A stretch of 64,000 nt of DNA from assembly GCA_016234935.1 (NCBI GenBank), contig JACRNL010000001.1:264679-328678 (forward strand). Direction: 5' to 3'. This stretch comes from Deltaproteobacteria bacterium. Its GTDB lineage: Bacteria > Desulfobacterota > GWC2-55-46. The notes under the pieces were generated by a model. That model saw only the letters and a program-made list of their open reading frames with translations. It was not told the DNA's origin and did no database searches. Shown piece by piece: positions 48,712 through 56,689 of this stretch (position 1 is its first letter; every line of letters starts with the position of its first letter). The position numbers were made by a program, and so were the translations under genes.

Positions 48712-51639
48712 TCATGCTATCAGTTTCATAATGACTTCGTTCAACTGATCAATTGTAAAGGGCTTTTTCAAAAATTTGTTGCCGGTGGAGTTTAGGAACC
48801 TGTGCGTGTCCGTGTTCACGCTGTCGCCGGTCACAAAAAGTATCCTGCCGACGGCTTCGGGCTTTATGGCCTTGACCTCGCGGTAAAAATCCTTCCCGTC
48901 AAGCCCCGGCATCTTCATATCGCTTATTATCAGCTCATATTCGTTTTCCATGACGCTTTTTATCGCCTGAGCGGTTTCCTCCGCGCGCGTTACGTCAAAA
49001 CCGAAGTAATTCAGGTATTCGTTCAGGACGTCAAGCACTACCGGCTCATCGTCCAATATCAGGGCCTTTTTGCCGGCGGCGAGCTTTTTAAGCCGCTCCC
49101 TCGTGTCCGCGAAGCTCGCGCCTGTTGACGCCTCGGGTTGACTCTCCCCTGCAACCGGCAATTCAATCACGAAAACCGCGCCGTCGGCCCTGCCCAGGGC
49201 GTATATCTCCCCGCCGTGCTCCTTTATGATGCCGTAAGAAATGGAAAGTCCGAGGCCGGTGCCCTTACCCACGGCCTTCGTCGTGAAAAACGGGTCAAAT
49301 ATCCTCGCGGCAACGTCGGCGGAGAGCCCCTTGCCGGTGTCTTCTACCCTCACGATGATCTTCCTGCCGTCTATGCATCTGGAGCTTATCATGATCCTGC
49401 CGCCCTTTCCAGACTCCGTGATTGCGTCATAGGCGTTGTTTATCAGGTTTAAAAACACCTGCTGTATCTGGGTGACGTCCAGCATCGTCCTGGGCACGGT
49501 GGCGTCAAGGTCGAGAACCGTCTCGACATTGCCCACTTTGAGCTGGTAGGCCCTTAATTCCACGCTCTCTTTTATCACGCCGTTTATGTTTTCGTATTTC
49601 TTCTCCGGTTTTCTCCAGCGCGCGAAGGTCAGGAGGTTCTCTATAATTTTTTTGCATCTTATCGAGGCGTCGTTTATCTTCTTGATTTTCAGCCTTATAT
49701 CCGCGCCAAGGCCTTCAGCCTCCGCGAGCAGCTCCGAAAAGACCATGATGCCGGTAAGCGGGTTATTAAGCTCATGCGCGACGCCGGATACCAATTCTCC
49801 GAGCGAAGACAGCTTGTCCGAATGTATCAGCTTTTGCATAAGGAGCCTCTGCTCAGTTACGTCCTTTATATAGACTACGGCCTTTCTCTCCTTTTCATCC
49901 TCGTCAATGAGCGGATACGTGTGCCACATGAGCACCTTGCCGTCCGCAAGCGTCATCTCGTGCTCCACCGGCGCCATGCCGTCAACGGCCTTTCTGACCG
50001 GACATTCCTTTAAAGGTTCGGCAAGGCCGAAAAAGCCGCACACGCGCCTGCCGACGGCCTGATGCTCGTCGAGCTTGAAGTTGTCTATAAAGTATTTATT
50101 TGCCTCCATGATATTGTGATTATAATCTACCACGAGCATGTAGTCCTTTATGCTGTCATATGTGAGCCGCAGTCTGTCCTTGGCCCTCCTCAGCTCCTGC
50201 TCCTCCATGCTGATGGTCCTGTTGGCCATTATGAGTTCGGAATTTTTCCTGTCCAGGTCTTCGTTAAGGAGCTTGAGTTCCTCGTTGATGGCGTGAAGCT
50301 CCTCTGTCTGGCTCTGCATCTCCTCGTAGGCAACCTCAAGCTCGTCGTTCTTTATCTTGAACTCCTCGTTTATCTCTGAGAACTCCCTGTTCATGGCCTC
50401 GATGACCCTTACGTACCGCTCCTTTTCATCGGCGCGCCTTCTTACGTCGTCCATCATGGTGTTGTAGGTGCGGGCAAGCAGCGTTATCTCGTCCTGTGTC
50501 GCGCCTTCGGATTCGACAGCCACCCTTGCCGTCATGTCGCCCCTGCCGAAGGAATCGAGCTTTTCCTTCAAGGCGTTAAGCGGACTGGTAATCTTCCTCG
50601 TTGAGATGAACGCGGCAAAGAGCGACAGGAGCAGGCCAAGCGCCGTAATAACGGCTATGACGGTGAGGTTGCGCCTCTGAATGGCCCATATGACGTCTTT
50701 GGGCATGCTGACGTCAAAGGAGCCGATGATATTATCCTTGTTGTCCCTTATGGGATCAAAAAGGGCGGAATAAACCTTGCCGTTTATGTCTATGTCGCCC
50801 CTGTAAGTAGTCCCGCCGGAAACGCCGTCGAGCACGGACTTCGTCACCTGCGAATCCCTCACGCTAAGGCCCTGGCTGTCGGAGAGGTTCGTGGTTATGC
50901 GCCAGCCCTGGGCCGAGATAGTCGTAAAAAGGCCGGGTATCTTGGATGCGACCATATCGGGGATGAAATTGTCGTTGTTTATGATGTCGGCGGTAAGGAT
51001 CGCGCCGATGGGCCTTTGCCCGTCGTCAAGCACGGGCACTATGACCATAAGGGCCATGACCGGCGGTTCGTCCGCCTCCTGCCTCGCGCCGGAGCCGGTT
51101 CTGGATGTTGCCGCAATGTGGGCCTTATCCGCGAAACCGTGCCCCTCGAGCCTGACTACGTCTTTCGGGATGAGCTCGGTAGACATCCTTGTCTCACCGT
51201 CAAGAAGCGCGTCATGCAAGACGCCGTTGATGTCGAACCTGTCGCCGGCGTCGTCGACGTTCAGCCGCGCGATGACCCTTGAGTCCTTGTCGACTATCGT
51301 CCATATGTCGACATAGGGCCGCCTGGACTTCCACACCATCATCATCTTCTTTAGCTTCGCCTTGTCCTTTTTCCGTACGGCCTGCTTGACGTCCTCGGAT
51401 GAGGCCGCCTGCAACATGCCGTAGCGCATCTGCTCTATGCGCAAGTAATAGTCCGTCCATGCCACCTTCAGGCCCGTGTCCATCTTGTCGTGCGCGTCGG
51501 CCACGATGTAGGAGTCAAGCACCCTGTAGGACATATAAGCCAATATCGTCATGGGGATGAGGATAACAAGTAAAAATACGACCGTGAGCTTAAAGCCCAT
51601 GTTCCTGTCATCGAAGAATTTAGCCAATCTTAAGGGCAT
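48712..51639 (-). CDS. Hybrid sensor histidine kinase (dCache-HAMP-PAS-HisKA-HATPase-REC)
   Basis: A 975-residue membrane kinase. Two transmembrane helices (~16-40 and ~322-345) flank a large double-Cache-like periplasmic sensor. A HAMP domain (~346-395) is followed by a long coiled coil, a PAS domain (~500-610; DYNHNIMEANKYF), HisKA with the His in GVAHELNNPLTGIMVF, HATPase (FLNLINNAYDAI, DTGKGLS, GTGLGLSISYGI) and a C-terminal receiver (ILDDEPVVLDVL, Asp in LIISDMKMPGLDG, FLKKPF). The receiver suggests a phosphorelay. It starts 4 bases after the cheR stop and precedes the NarL-type regulator. Confidence 0.95.
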   Translation of the reverse strand: MPLRLAKFFDDRNMGFKLTVVFLLVILIPMTILAYMSYRVLDSYIVADAHDKMDTGLKVAWTDYYLRIEQMRYGMLQAASSEDVKQAVRKKDKAKLKKMMMVWKSRRPYVDIWTIVDKDSRVIARLNVDDAGDRFDINGVLHDALLDGETRMSTELIPKDVVRLEGHGFADKAHIAATSRTGSGARQEADEPPVMALMVIVPVLDDGQRPIGAILTADIINNDNFIPDMVASKIPGLFTTISAQGWRITTNLSDSQGLSVRDSQVTKSVLDGVSGGTTYRGDIDINGKVYSALFDPIRDNKDNIIGSFDVSMPKDVIWAIQRRNLTVIAVITALGLLLSLFAAFISTRKITSPLNALKEKLDSFGRGDMTARVAVESEGATQDEITLLARTYNTMMDDVRRRADEKERYVRVIEAMNREFSEINEEFKIKNDELEVAYEEMQSQTEELHAINEELKLLNEDLDRKNSELIMANRTISMEEQELRRAKDRLRLTYDSIKDYMLVVDYNHNIMEANKYFIDNFKLDEHQAVGRRVCGFFGLAEPLKECPVRKAVDGMAPVEHEMTLADGKVLMWHTYPLIDEDEKERKAVVYIKDVTEQRLLMQKLIHSDKLSSLGELVSGVAHELNNPLTGIMVFSELLAEAEGLGADIRLKIKKINDASIRCKKIIENLLTFARWRKPEKKYENINGVIKESVELRAYQLKVGNVETVLDLDATVPRTMLDVTQIQQVFLNLINNAYDAITESGKGGRIMISSRCIDGRKIIVRVEDTGKGLSADVAARIFDPFFTTKAVGKGTGLGLSISYGIIKEHGGEIYALGRADGAVFVIELPVAGESQPEASTGASFADTRERLKKLAAGKKALILDDEPVVLDVLNEYLNYFGFDVTRAEETAQAIKSVMENEYELIISDMKMPGLDGKDFYREVKAIKPEAVGRILFVTGDSVNTDTHRFLNSTGNKFLKKPFTIDQLNEVIMKLIA

Positions 51640-51643
51640 ACGA

Positions 51644-52474
51644 TTAGTCCATTTTCCTGTAGATGCTCATGTCGCTTTCAAGCTGGACATAGCGGTGCGC
51701 GAACTGCTTGGGCAGGCTCTCGGATCTGCCCATGACAAGTATCCCTCCGGCGGAAAGGGCGTAATCGAGTTTTTTAAACACCTCTTCCTGAAGCTCTTTG
51801 TTGAAGTATATGAACAGGTTCCTGCAAAAAAGGATATGCATCTTCGTAAGGGTCCTGTCCGTGACGATATTGTGCCTGCCGAACCTCACGAGGTTTGTGA
51901 GGTTGTTTTTGACCTTGTATGCCGCCCCCGTTCTGATGAAATACTTCTTGATAAGCTCCGGGGGCACGTTTGTCAGGAAATCCTCCCTGTATTCGGCCTT
52001 TCTGGCGACGTCTAATGCCTCTGAATCAATATCGGTGGCGAATATCTTCGTGTGCTTCAAGACGGCCGGGCTTAAAAGCTCGGAAGATAATATGGCCAGC
52101 GTATACGCCTCCTCGCCGTTTGCGCACGCGCAGCACCAGATGCGCAGCCCCTTCACGAGGGTGCGCCCTTCGTCAACCGGCAGAAACGCATTTATGGCCG
52201 GCCCAAGGGCCTCGAAAACCTCCGGCTCCCGGAAGAACTCGCTTACTTTTATAGTGATGCAGGAAAGAAGCCTGTTGTATTCCGAGGGGTCTGAATCAAG
52301 CATCTTGAAGTATTCGTTGTAGGAGAGAATATTCAGGGCGTTAAGCCTTTTTGTAACCCTGCGTTTGAGGCTGGCGGTCTTATAATTGCGGAAATCAAAG
52401 CCGCGTTCATCATACATGCGGACAAGAAGTCTCGTGAGATCAACGTCAAGGTTGCGTGTCGAAGGTGTCATCAT
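51644..52474 (-). CDS. cheR: CheR-type protein-glutamate methyltransferase
   Basis: SAM-dependent methyltransferase (276 residues) that adapts chemoreceptors. N-terminal helical CheR domain (YKTASLKRRVTKRLNALNI, ITIKVSEFFREPEVF) and a Rossmann domain with the SAM motif RIWCCACANGEEAYTLAI and FATDIDSEAL. It is the first gene of the leftward chemosensory set and lies upstream of the hybrid kinase. No ribosome-binding site is obvious before the paired ATGs at 52474/52471. Confidence 0.93.
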   Translation of the reverse strand: MMTPSTRNLDVDLTRLLVRMYDERGFDFRNYKTASLKRRVTKRLNALNILSYNEYFKMLDSDPSEYNRLLSCITIKVSEFFREPEVFEALGPAINAFLPVDEGRTLVKGLRIWCCACANGEEAYTLAILSSELLSPAVLKHTKIFATDIDSEALDVARKAEYREDFLTNVPPELIKKYFIRTGAAYKVKNNLTNLVRFGRHNIVTDRTLTKMHILFCRNLFIYFNKELQEEVFKKLDYALSAGGILVMGRSESLPKQFAHRYVQLESDMSIYRKMD

Positions 52475-52561: not shown

Positions 52562-52591
52562 CTGAAGGGCGCGTCTTTTCTTTGCTATAAT
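52562..52591 (+). promoter_or_regulatory. Promoter of the EIIA/P-type ATPase gene, predicts leaderless mRNA
   Basis: A perfect TATAAT (52586-52591) ends 7 bases before the ATG at 52599. The best -35 is CTGAAG (52562-52567) at 18 bases. No Shine-Dalgarno motif precedes the ATG. Confidence 0.5.
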
Positions 52592-52598
52592 CTAACGT

Positions 52599-55500
52599 AT
52601 GGACGGCAGACACACTCTAAAAGCCGCGCTCCTCGGCGTGAAAAGTGAAGACCATGAAACCGTGCTTGAGGCAATGACTGCCCGCCTTTTGCCCACGGCC
52701 TCGGCAAAAAAGGACAGCAAGGCCTTTTGCGACCTTAAAGCCCACGAGAGCATTGACGGCATACTGGCCAACACTGGCTCGGCGATATTCCATTGTCTTA
52801 ACGAAGACGTCAAAGAGCCGTTAATCGCCCTTGCGGTGGCGCAAAAGGGCGTCCCGTATGTGTCCGCGGCACACAGCCGCAAGACCCCCGGACAAAAAGG
52901 CATCTTTTCCCACATCTATAAAATCATCCAGCCCGCGCATGGAAGGCCGGAGGCAAAACGCATATTCTTCCTCATCATCTCTCCGATAAAAGAGAGCGGA
53001 ACGCATCTTCAGCTTCTTTCCAATCTCGAAGGGCTTCTGCTGAGCAAAAACTTCCAATCCTCGATACTTGACGCAAAGACTGAAAACGAAGCGTGCCTTG
53101 CGGTTAATCGCGGCCTTGAGACGGCTAAATCCTCTTTTATCCCGCTTGAAAAAAACGAGGTGCTCCTTGAACTCGGCACGTCCGAAAGCGGGATCAGCGA
53201 TGAAACGGCGGCCCTGCGCCTGAAGCTCGCGGGCCCCAACACCATCAAAAGGGCGGTGCGCGGGACGCTCCTTAAAGACTTCCTCTATAACCTTTTCCTC
53301 AACCTCTTTGCCGTGCTCCTGTGGGTGGGCGGAGCCCTTGCGTTCTTATCAGGCATGGCCGAGCTTGGCTACGCCATATTCCTCGTCATCGTCATCAACG
53401 CGGTCTTCAGCTTCTTTCAGGAATACAAGGCCGAGCGGGCCGTCGAGGCCCTTGAAAAGCTGCTTCCGAAAAAAGTCCGCGTGATACGCGGCGGGGCTGA
53501 AAAGGAGATAGACGCCGAAAAGCTCGTTCCCGGCGACCTTATCATCCTCGGCGAAGGCGACAGCGTCCCTGCGGACGGCAGGCTCATCCACGCCGACGAC
53601 ATGCGGGTGGACAACTCCGCCCTCACCGGGGAGAGCAAGCCCGTCTACAAGATTTCCGACCCGCTCCCGACGGCGCACGGCTTCATCTGGACTGAAGTCC
53701 CGAACCTCGTCTTCGCCGGCACGGCGGTTCTCTCCGGCGCCGGAAGCATGGTGGTAACGGCCACCGGCATGGACACGGAGATAGGAAAGGTCGCCTCCCT
53801 GACGCAGGCCATAAAGCTGGAGATGAGCCCGCTTCAAAAGGAAATGGCAAACGTCACCAGGACGGTAACCTTCATCGCCGTCACGCTTGGCGCCGCCTTT
53901 TTTATCTTCGGCAGGGGTATAGCCGGACTGACCCTGACCGAAAGCTTCATCTTCGCCATAGGCATCATCGTCGCCAACGTGCCCGAAGGGCTCCTGCCCA
54001 CGGTGTCGCTCTCCCTGGCCATGGGGGTTCAGCGTATGGCCGCTAAAAACGCCATCGTGAAAAAACTCTCCGCCGTCGAGACGCTGGGGAGCGCGACGGT
54101 CATCTGCACGGACAAGACCGGCACGCTCACCACCAACCAGATGTGCGTTACCAAAATATACGCGGGCAACACGCTCATAGACGTCACCGGAAGCGGCTAC
54201 GAACCGTCAGGGCGGTTTTTCATGGGCAACAAACCTCTTGATAAAGACGGAATCGGCTCTCTCGGCGTTGAAAGGCTTCTTACAGGCGCGGCCCTTTGCA
54301 ACAACGCGGCGCTGAGGCCCCCTTCGGCAGCCGTTCCTTACTGGACAATCTCAGGCGACCCGACGGAGGGCGCGCTAATCACGGCCGCCCAAAAAGCCGG
54401 TATCTCCATTGACTCGCTTAGACAAACATTGCCGCGCATAGCGCAGTTCCCCTTTGAGCGGATAAGAAAACGCATGGCCACCGTTCATGAAGACAACGGC
54501 AAGGCCGTGGCTTATATCAAGGGCGCGCCCGTGGAAACCCTTAAGTTCTGCACTCATATCAGCCGCGGCGGAAGTTTAACGGAGCTTACGCCTGAGGATA
54601 GGCGCGATATCCTGACTGAAAACGACCTGATGGCGTCAAGGGGCCTCCGTGTGCTTGCCGTCGCCGCAAAGTCCGTCCCGCTCGCCAAAACCTATAAGAT
54701 AGGCGAGACTGAGCAAGAACTCTGTTTTTTAGGCCTTGTGGCCATGATAGACCCTCCGAGGCCGGAGGTCAAAGAGGCCGTGGCCGCGTGCAGGGGCGCG
54801 GGAATAAAGATAGTCGTAGCCACCGGCGACTACGGCCTTACGGCAAAGGCGGTGGCCGATGAAATAGGCCTTGACCACGGCATAAGGATAATCACGGGAG
54901 AGGAACTCGGCGGCCTCGGCAACGCGGCATTGAAGGAACTGCTCAAGAACGGCAGCGCGATATTCGCGCGCGTGGCGCCCAAGGACAAGCTCCGCGTGGT
55001 GGCGGCCTTGCAGGAAAACGGCGAGGTCGTGGCCGTCACCGGAGACGGCGTCAACGACGCCCCCGCCCTCAAGAAGGCGGACATAGGCATCGCCATGGGC
55101 CTTCGCGGAAGCGACGTGGCAAAGGAGTCCGCCGAGATAATCCTCGCGGACGACAACTTCGCGTCCATCGTCGACGCCGTCAGGGAAGGGCGCGCGGTAT
55201 ATGCCAACATAAAAAAGTTCGTCACATACATCTTCGCCAGCAACATCCCTGAAATCATTCCATTCATCGCCTTCGTGATATTCAAGATACCGCTGCCCCT
55301 TACCGTGATGCAGATACTGGCCGTTGACCTCGGCACCGACCTGTTCCCTGCCCTGGCCCTCGGCGTCGAGCCGCCTGAAAAGGGCGTCATGAGCCAGCCG
55401 CCGAGGCCCAGGGACAAACGGCTCCTTGACCGCAAAACCATTATGCGGGCATACCTGTTTTTAGGCCCTATCGAGGCCGCGCTCTGTCTGGCCGGATTTT

Positions 55501-55877
55501 TCTTCGCCTACTGGTTACGGGGCTGGCATTTTGGAGAGCCTCTGGCCTCCTCCGGCGCGGTATACGCCGCGGCCACTACCATGAGCTTTGCCGGCATCGT
55601 GGCCTCCCAGGTCGGCAATATCTTCGCGTGCAGGACCGAGAGGGAATCCGTGTTTAAAATCTTTTTCAAAAACCGCTTCGTTGTCTTCGCCATTGCGATG
55701 GAGCTTGCCATCTCACTCCTGCTCCTGTATAACCCGTTTTTCCAGCGCGTATTCGGCTTTGCCCCGCTCACGTGGAAGGACTGGGCGTTTCTTTCCGCCT
55801 TCCCGGCCGTCATGCTTGCCGCCTCCGAGGCCAGAAAGCTCTACCTGAGACGATTTCATAGTTTAAAAACTTATTGA
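52599..55877 (+). CDS. P-type cation-transporting ATPase fused to an N-terminal PTS EIIA-like domain
   Basis: A 1092-residue membrane pump. Residues ~5-165 look like a PTS EIIA type 2 (PtsN/fructose) domain: His65 in GSAIFHC aligns with the phosphorylated His of the usual AIPHG, followed by VKEPLIALAV and SGTHLQLLSNLEGLLLSKNF. From ~190 a P2-type ATPase follows: cation_ATPase_N, LTGES (TGES at 343), VANVPEGLLPTVSLSLAMG, the phosphorylated Asp505 in CTDKTGTLT, GDGVNDAPALKKADIGIAMG, and SNIPEI and LAVDLGTDLFPALAL in M5-M6, resembling Na/K- or Ca-type pumps. It probably exports Na+, K+ or Ca2+; the ion is not shown. The mRNA appears leaderless. Confidence 0.92.
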   Translation: MDGRHTLKAALLGVKSEDHETVLEAMTARLLPTASAKKDSKAFCDLKAHESIDGILANTGSAIFHCLNEDVKEPLIALAVAQKGVPYVSAAHSRKTPGQKGIFSHIYKIIQPAHGRPEAKRIFFLIISPIKESGTHLQLLSNLEGLLLSKNFQSSILDAKTENEACLAVNRGLETAKSSFIPLEKNEVLLELGTSESGISDETAALRLKLAGPNTIKRAVRGTLLKDFLYNLFLNLFAVLLWVGGALAFLSGMAELGYAIFLVIVINAVFSFFQEYKAERAVEALEKLLPKKVRVIRGGAEKEIDAEKLVPGDLIILGEGDSVPADGRLIHADDMRVDNSALTGESKPVYKISDPLPTAHGFIWTEVPNLVFAGTAVLSGAGSMVVTATGMDTEIGKVASLTQAIKLEMSPLQKEMANVTRTVTFIAVTLGAAFFIFGRGIAGLTLTESFIFAIGIIVANVPEGLLPTVSLSLAMGVQRMAAKNAIVKKLSAVETLGSATVICTDKTGTLTTNQMCVTKIYAGNTLIDVTGSGYEPSGRFFMGNKPLDKDGIGSLGVERLLTGAALCNNAALRPPSAAVPYWTISGDPTEGALITAAQKAGISIDSLRQTLPRIAQFPFERIRKRMATVHEDNGKAVAYIKGAPVETLKFCTHISRGGSLTELTPEDRRDILTENDLMASRGLRVLAVAAKSVPLAKTYKIGETEQELCFLGLVAMIDPPRPEVKEAVAACRGAGIKIVVATGDYGLTAKAVADEIGLDHGIRIITGEELGGLGNAALKELLKNGSAIFARVAPKDKLRVVAALQENGEVVAVTGDGVNDAPALKKADIGIAMGLRGSDVAKESAEIILADDNFASIVDAVREGRAVYANIKKFVTYIFASNIPEIIPFIAFVIFKIPLPLTVMQILAVDLGTDLFPALALGVEPPEKGVMSQPPRPRDKRLLDRKTIMRAYLFLGPIEAALCLAGFFFAYWLRGWHFGEPLASSGAVYAAATTMSFAGIVASQVGNIFACRTERESVFKIFFKNRFVVFAIAMELAISLLLLYNPFFQRVFGFAPLTWKDWAFLSAFPAVMLAASEARKLYLRRFHSLKTY

Positions 55878-55880
55878 CTG

Positions 55881-55910
55881 TTGAATCGGGCTTGCGTAGT
55901 ATGCTATGAT
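55881..55910 (+). promoter_or_regulatory. Probable promoter for the DsrE-like/tusA pair
   Basis: TTGAAT (55881-55886) and TATGAT (55905-55910) with an 18-base spacer, just after the P-type ATPase stop. AGGGGC lies 14 bases before the next ATG. Confidence 0.45.
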
Positions 55911-55936: not shown

Positions 55937-56431
55937 ATGACAGACGCTAAAAAAAATAAAGGCTCCGTGACGATAGTAGTCTTCAGCGGCGAACTTGACA
56001 AGGCAATCGCCGCATACGTCATCGCCACCGCCGCGGCCTCCATGGGCATGGGCGTAAATATGTTCTTCACCTTCTGGGGCATGAACGTCATAAAGAAACG
56101 GGGCGGCCTGATAAAAGGGCGGCACTGGATGCAGAAGATGCTGAACGTCATGAACTACGGCCACGCGAAAAAATTGGCGCTCTCCAGGATGAACATGCTC
56201 GGTATTGGCCCGGCCATGCTGAAGACGATGATGTCTCAAAAACGGGTGCCTACCCTTCATGAGTTCATCCAAACGGCGGCCTCCCTGGGCGTGAAGATGT
56301 ACGCCTGCGAGATGAGCATGAGCGTCATGGGGCTTAAAAAAGAGGACTTCATAGACGAATGCGCCGGCGTCATAGGCGCGGTGTCATATCTGGCGGACGC
56401 GAAGGAATCAAACGTAAATCTTTTTATATGA
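55937..56431 (+). CDS. DsrE/DsrF/DrsH-like family protein (DsrE2 type)
   Basis: A 164-residue protein of the DsrE-like fold: VTIVVFSGELDKAIAAYVIATAAASMGM, VNMFFTFWGMNVIKK, a Met-rich middle, and VKMYACEMSMSVMGLKKEDFIDE with the conserved Cys, plus a second Cys in DECAGVIG. DsrE2 proteins pair with TusA and rhodaneses to shuttle sulfane sulfur in the cytoplasm, often at the membrane. tusA follows by 3 bases, supporting that role. No sulfur oxidation or reduction genes are nearby. Confidence 0.9.
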   Translation: MTDAKKNKGSVTIVVFSGELDKAIAAYVIATAAASMGMGVNMFFTFWGMNVIKKRGGLIKGRHWMQKMLNVMNYGHAKKLALSRMNMLGIGPAMLKTMMSQKRVPTLHEFIQTAASLGVKMYACEMSMSVMGLKKEDFIDECAGVIGAVSYLADAKESNVNLFI

Positions 56432-56440
56432 GGTATGAAG

Positions 56441-56689
56441 ATGCCCGCTTTTGCCGCGAATAAGACAATAGACGTAAGGGGGCTGGCCTGCCCCATGCCG
56501 TCCGTTAAGACGGCCCTGGCGCTGGAGGGGATGGCCGCGGGCGAGACGCTCGAGGTCGTCACCGACGACCCGGTCTCTAAAAAAGACCTGCCCGTGTGGG
56601 CCCAATCCACCGGCAATACCCTCCTTGGAATGAAGGAAGAAGCGGCGGTTGTAAGGATATATTTGAAGAAAGGCCTGAGGATAGATTAA
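56441..56689 (+). CDS. tusA: TusA-family sulfurtransferase
   Basis: An 82-residue sulfur carrier with the diagnostic CPxP motif, in DVRGLACPMPSVKTALALEGM, where the Cys carries persulfide. It functions in tRNA thiolation, cofactor sulfuration or sulfur trafficking. ATG at 56441 has GAGG 7 bases upstream; an ATG at 56435 is too close to it. It overlaps the regulatory end of the DsrE-like gene and likely shares its mRNA. Confidence 0.92.
   Translation: MPAFAANKTIDVRGLACPMPSVKTALALEGMAAGETLEVVTDDPVSKKDLPVWAQSTGNTLLGMKEEAAVVRIYLKKGLRID

Follow-up and report, generated by a model that had tools for sequence, protein, structure and literature searches.

An N-terminal PTS EIIA type-2 domain on a P2-type ATPase: a candidate for phosphotransferase control of an ion pump

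Why does an ion pump carry a domain of the phosphotransferase system (PTS)? The question is raised by one gene in a window of 64,000 nucleotides of deltaproteobacterial DNA. A first-pass annotation of the window placed an EIIA domain in front of a P2-type ATPase core and suggested that PTS phosphorylation could link ion export to carbon or nitrogen state. The identity of the two parts, the ion that is moved and the phosphate relay that could reach the pump are considered in turn below.

The fusion gene and its distribution

The fusion gene (52599..55877; coordinates refer to the window and to the + strand unless a - is given) is a single open reading frame from ATG to stop and encodes 1092 amino acids. 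It is comprised of a PTS EIIA type-2 domain (residues ~1-176, 52599..53126) and a P2-type ATPase core (residues 185-1092, 53151..55874). The hexamer TATAAT at 52586..52591 is a possible -10 box. It lies just 7 nt 5' of the ATG, which suggests a leaderless mRNA. A consensus promoter scan did not list this hexamer; no matching first hexamer passed. The production of a separate ATPase from an internal start is unsupported: the sole in-frame start codon within residues 121-215 is a GTG at residue 188, and it is without a clear ribosome-binding site.

The assignment of the N-terminal domain made in the first-pass annotation is borne out by both profile and fold. The three sequence motifs on which it was based are all found in the protein. 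The PTS_EIIA_2 profile PF00359, whose gathering cut-off is 27 bits, scores 43 bits on the whole protein and 49.9 bits (E 4.2e-13) on residues 1-187. Among the NCBIfam models, a fruA-type IIA match falls below its cut-off, and the PtsN equivalog model TIGR01419 gives 12.6 bits against a cut-off of 138.7, so that the fused EIIA fails it. The predicted structure of residues 1-183 (pLDDT 79.3, pTM 0.77) has an EIIA fold. It best matches EIIANtr (1a6j; Z 17.1, rmsd 2.6 over 140 residues), while the match to E. coli EIIAMtl (1a3a) has a Z of 13.9 and those to the cytoplasmic domains of band 3, AE and BTR1 have Z values of 10-16. About 25 extra residues (~90-118, 52866-52952) separate the EIIA halves; they are predicted with low confidence and are absent from the other fused relatives.

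The fusion is conserved in dozens of genomes. A search for other EIIA fusions to E1-E2 ATPases gave an alignment of 37 fused proteins, consisting of the window protein and 36 further proteins drawn from a genome-collection scan and from relatives of the window. A tree built from 105 ATPase cores groups all 37 in one clade (SH-aLRT 95), which corresponds to a single change; the unfused relatives in the tree belong to Chloroflexota, methanogens, Nitrospira and others. The recurrence of the fusion in many independent genomes rules out an assembly artefact or a frameshift, and the fusion is therefore neither chance nor error. Besides deltaproteobacterial metagenome-assembled genomes (MAGs), the scan recovered fusions in MAGs labelled Nitrospinota, Planctomycetota (Brocadia), Desulfuromonadales, NC10 and Rokubacteria. 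When the clade's own profile was applied to the host class, fused-type EIIA matches were found in 33 of the 63 genomes examined. These 35 matches, some of which sit in frames truncated by contig ends, score 151-246 bits and are clearly separated from stand-alone PtsN, which scores at most 114 bits. Elsewhere in the wider phylum, EIIA type-2 domains also occur in frames of 554-634 amino acids (G065, G070, G074, G083, G088, G092 and G093), which may represent further EIIA-transporter fusions or PTS permease fusions.

The surroundings of the gene recur in part. Downstream lie two genes for sulfur-relay proteins: a DsrE-family gene (55937..56431; PF13686), which adjoins the fusion in 10 relatives, and a TusA-family gene (56435..56689; PF01206), which is found in the loci of 12 relatives. 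Both may be served by a promoter-like site at 55874-55910. Upstream and divergent (48712-52474, -) are genes for a CheR methyltransferase and for a hybrid histidine kinase of the Cache/PAS type, which accompany the fusion in about 10 relatives.

The pump core and its probable ions

The ATPase core exceeds the Pfam cut-offs of PF00122, PF13246, PF00702, PF00689 and PF00690, and its catalytic motifs are intact: TGES, DKTG (in DKTGTLT), TGD and GDGxND (GDGVND). The first-pass annotation spoke of ion export in general. This can be narrowed, as the predicted ion-site residues are of the Na,K-ATPase type. The TM4 motif ANVPEGL (53973..53993; A459, V461, E463) is kept across fused and unfused relatives. 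In the TM5/TM6 region (55227..55340), Y877, S881, N882, E885, D910, T913 and D914 are aligned with Na,K-ATPase Y771, S775, N776, E779, D804, T807 and D808. The whole ion site of Na,K-ATPase comprises 14 positions in TM4-6, 8 and 9. Twelve of these are identical in the fused pump, including the equivalents of Q923 and E954, and the two exceptions are T774, replaced by Ala, and D926, replaced by Asn. Nearly all of these residues are conserved across the fused clade. We consider it quite probable, judging from these residues, that the transported ions are Na+ and K+.

The alternative is a Ca2+ pump of the P2A/PMR1-like type, in which the EIIA switch would control Ca2+ export. Whole-protein comparisons do not all point the same way. 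The NCBIfam model of PMR1-type Ca2+ pumps, TIGR01522, scores 625 bits and that of the Na,K/H,K subfamily, TIGR01106, 599 bits. Both scores are below cut-off, that of TIGR01106, a curated animal-type Na,K subfamily, being 946 bits. The slight lead of the PMR1-type model keeps the ion assignment short of certain, and the Ca2+ pumps SPCA1 (501 bits) and LMCA1 (474) are also strong matches in the PDB, with SERCA at 423. Nevertheless, the Na,K-ATPase alpha subunit leads the PDB sequence matches with 527 bits, Na,K-ATPase is also the top match in a fold search with the full-length model, and the predicted ion site argues against Ca2+. The unfused methanogen homologues of the same tree argue in the same direction, methanogens being reported to have P2C pumps (PMC10654040). 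Ca2+ transport is thus rather unlikely. No beta subunit was recognised among the flanking genes as annotated. The host genome has one other P2-like ATPase, which is 40% identical.

The phosphate relay and the proposed control of the pump

The relay that could phosphorylate the domain is present in the host genome (G000; 2.15 Mb in 15 contigs, completeness 100). A single locus has the order lptC-lptA-lptB-rpoN-hpf-hprK-rapZ-EIIAman-EIIBman-HPr-EI; the His and Ser sites of HPr and the domains of EI are intact. Of the components named in the first-pass annotation, EI and HPr were thus found and PtsP was not. The EI of this locus lacks a GAF domain and is the only EI detected in the host genome. 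A nitrogen-type PTS with PtsP is therefore unsupported, and the evidence favours a carbon/energy (PEP/pyruvate) input over one from nitrogen. Among 40 genomes surveyed, almost all of which have the fusion, 36 gave an EI and 35 an HPr. In two seemingly complete fusion-bearing genomes (G005 and G048) neither was detected, perhaps due to assembly gaps.

Three relatives that were inspected have a stand-alone ptsN between hpf and hprK, two genes that are just 13 nt apart in the host. A ptsN hidden elsewhere in the host genome was sought with PF00359 and with the clade's own profile and was not found. Since ptsN is lost and there is no other type-2 EIIA match, the pump bears the only detectable type-2 EIIA of the host. 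EIIAman and EIIBman (L088 8420-9384, -) may represent a regulatory mannose-type branch, as no EIICman was detected in the host genome in a search confined to the profile PF03609. These three observations, a type-2 EIIA confined to the pump, an absent ptsN and an EIICman that was not found, make the whole relay look regulatory.

The site of phosphorylation proposed in the first-pass annotation, His65 in GSAIFHC, holds up in the alignment. E. coli PtsN, with its residues R57, His73 and His120, served as the alignment ruler. His65 (codon 52791..52793), found in the context AIFH, is aligned with PtsN His73 in all 37 fused proteins. A second histidine of the active-site region, His136 (codon 53004..53006) in SGTHLQ, is aligned with His120 in 36 of the 37. 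Among the fused EIIA domains, identity to that of the window falls as low as 20%, and His65 and Pro129 are the sole invariant columns. The loop around His65 is altered: the close clade has AIFHC and the Brocadia group F.PH in place of the classical AIPHG, and most of the fused proteins have a His at the position of PtsN R57, whereas the stand-alone PtsN proteins of the relatives retain R...GIGxGVAIPH. Both changes could weaken phosphotransfer.

The altered loop and the lost arginine raise the alternative that the EIIA has been inherited as a docking or structural module, which binds HPr or other partners and is no longer phosphorylated, the pump being regulated by binding alone or not at all. 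The genomes with the most divergent fused EIIA domains (L018 of NC10 and L047 of Rokubacteria), in which neither EI nor HPr was found, would fit such a module. On the other hand, a purely structural role needs neither of the two conserved histidines. Furthermore, pairwise dN/dS is 0.10-0.21 for the EIIA part and 0.12-0.27 for the pump, and this similarity indicates that the domain is maintained under strong purifying selection. Loss of phosphorylation is accordingly considered unlikely, somewhat more so than Ca2+ transport.

The interpretation that we consider fairly probable is that HPr phosphorylates His65 and thereby turns a Na+/K+-type pump on or off according to the PEP/pyruvate state. 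Phosphotransfer from HPr~P to His65 and its effect on the pump are here inferred. EI would take the phosphate from PEP and pass it through HPr to His65 of the N-terminal EIIA, and serine phosphorylation of HPr by HprK would gate the input. The EIIA is joined directly to the actuator (A) region and would be well placed to hold back rotation of the A domain. In its unphosphorylated form it may dock on the cytosolic A, P and N domains and limit the movements of the A domain in the E1/E2 cycle; at high PEP/pyruvate, the phosphorylated EIIA would let go and the pump would run. The full-length model (pLDDT 82.6, pTM 0.69) is too weak to place the docking of EIIA.

Fused and free EIIA domains studied in other systems provide precedents. 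The fused EIIA of LacS is phosphorylated by HPr (PMC10710835), PtsN in its unphosphorylated form binds the K+/H+ antiporter YcgO and inhibits it (PMC11808508), and several K+ systems are under the action of PtsN (PMC13104625). By analogy with PtsN and YcgO, the balance tips slightly towards the unphosphorylated EIIA being the inhibitor of the pump. The sign is uncertain because, in P. putida, it is phosphorylated PtsN that acts on KdpD (PMC13104625).

Information could also flow in the reverse direction. The pump would then sense ions or its own conformation, and its EIIA would drain or hold phosphate, reporting the ion status to the PTS, to HprK/RapZ and to the EIIAman/EIIBman branch. A relay whose only type-2 EIIA sits on the pump, with ptsN cleanly absent, is what this proposal would lead one to expect. 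However, a separate ptsN is retained in most of the other relatives that have the fusion, and in LacS and YcgO the direction is from the PTS to the transporter, so that reverse flow appears improbable, the least likely of the alternatives weighed here. It is also conceivable, but rather doubtful, that in the host lineage the fused pump replaced stand-alone PtsN and became the one type-2 EIIA in a regulatory PTS, with the pump cycle and the PEP/pyruvate relay coupled both ways in one protein.

Relation to known systems

The first-pass annotation knew of no studied example of such a protein, and no description of a fusion between an EIIA domain and a P-type ATPase was found in the literature searched, which covered few subscription papers. 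The parts are known; their combination and the regulatory link between them appear to be unreported. If a PTS-switched Na+/K+-type pump does exist, it bears on both phosphorylation-controlled transporters and the uncharacterised P2C pumps. The connection already known between K+ homeostasis and PTS proteins would then reside within one polypeptide, and the metabolic (fuel) state may directly switch the pumping of ions.

The closest known counterpart of the domain is EIIANtr (PtsN), with which it shares its fold and the aligned active-site histidines. PtsN acts on monovalent cation transport systems, TrkA, KdpD and YcgO (PMC13104625, PMC11808508). PtsN is a separate protein, whereas the fused EIIA is covalently part of its pump and its host has no GAF-bearing EI. 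The core is related to the prokaryotic P2C pumps, for instance those of methanogens, which share the ion-site residues and fall in the same tree but are without an EIIA domain; a review describes the P2C pumps of archaea as lacking functional characterisation (PMC10654040).

Other transporters carry a comparable domain. LacS of streptococci and lactobacilli likewise combines a transporter with a fused PTS domain that HPr phosphorylates (PMC10710835). It is, however, a secondary sugar transporter (a GPH symporter) with an EIIAGlc-type domain, whereas here an ATP-driven ion pump has a type-2 EIIA as its N-terminal domain, and the resemblance is functional only. Band 3, AE and BTR1 also have an EIIA-like fold fused to a transporter, as judged by the match to the predicted structure, but are eukaryotic secondary transporters with no PTS.

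A 2023 review names LacS as the sole bacterial transporter regulated by direct phosphorylation (PMC10710835), to which the Kdp pump (PMC7535926) can arguably be added. KdpFABC is likewise a bacterial P-type pump controlled by cytosolic phosphorylation. In KdpB the modification is an inhibitory phosphoserine, Ser162, in the TGES motif of the A domain (PMC7535926), whereas in the fused pump it is predicted to be a PTS phosphohistidine on an added domain.
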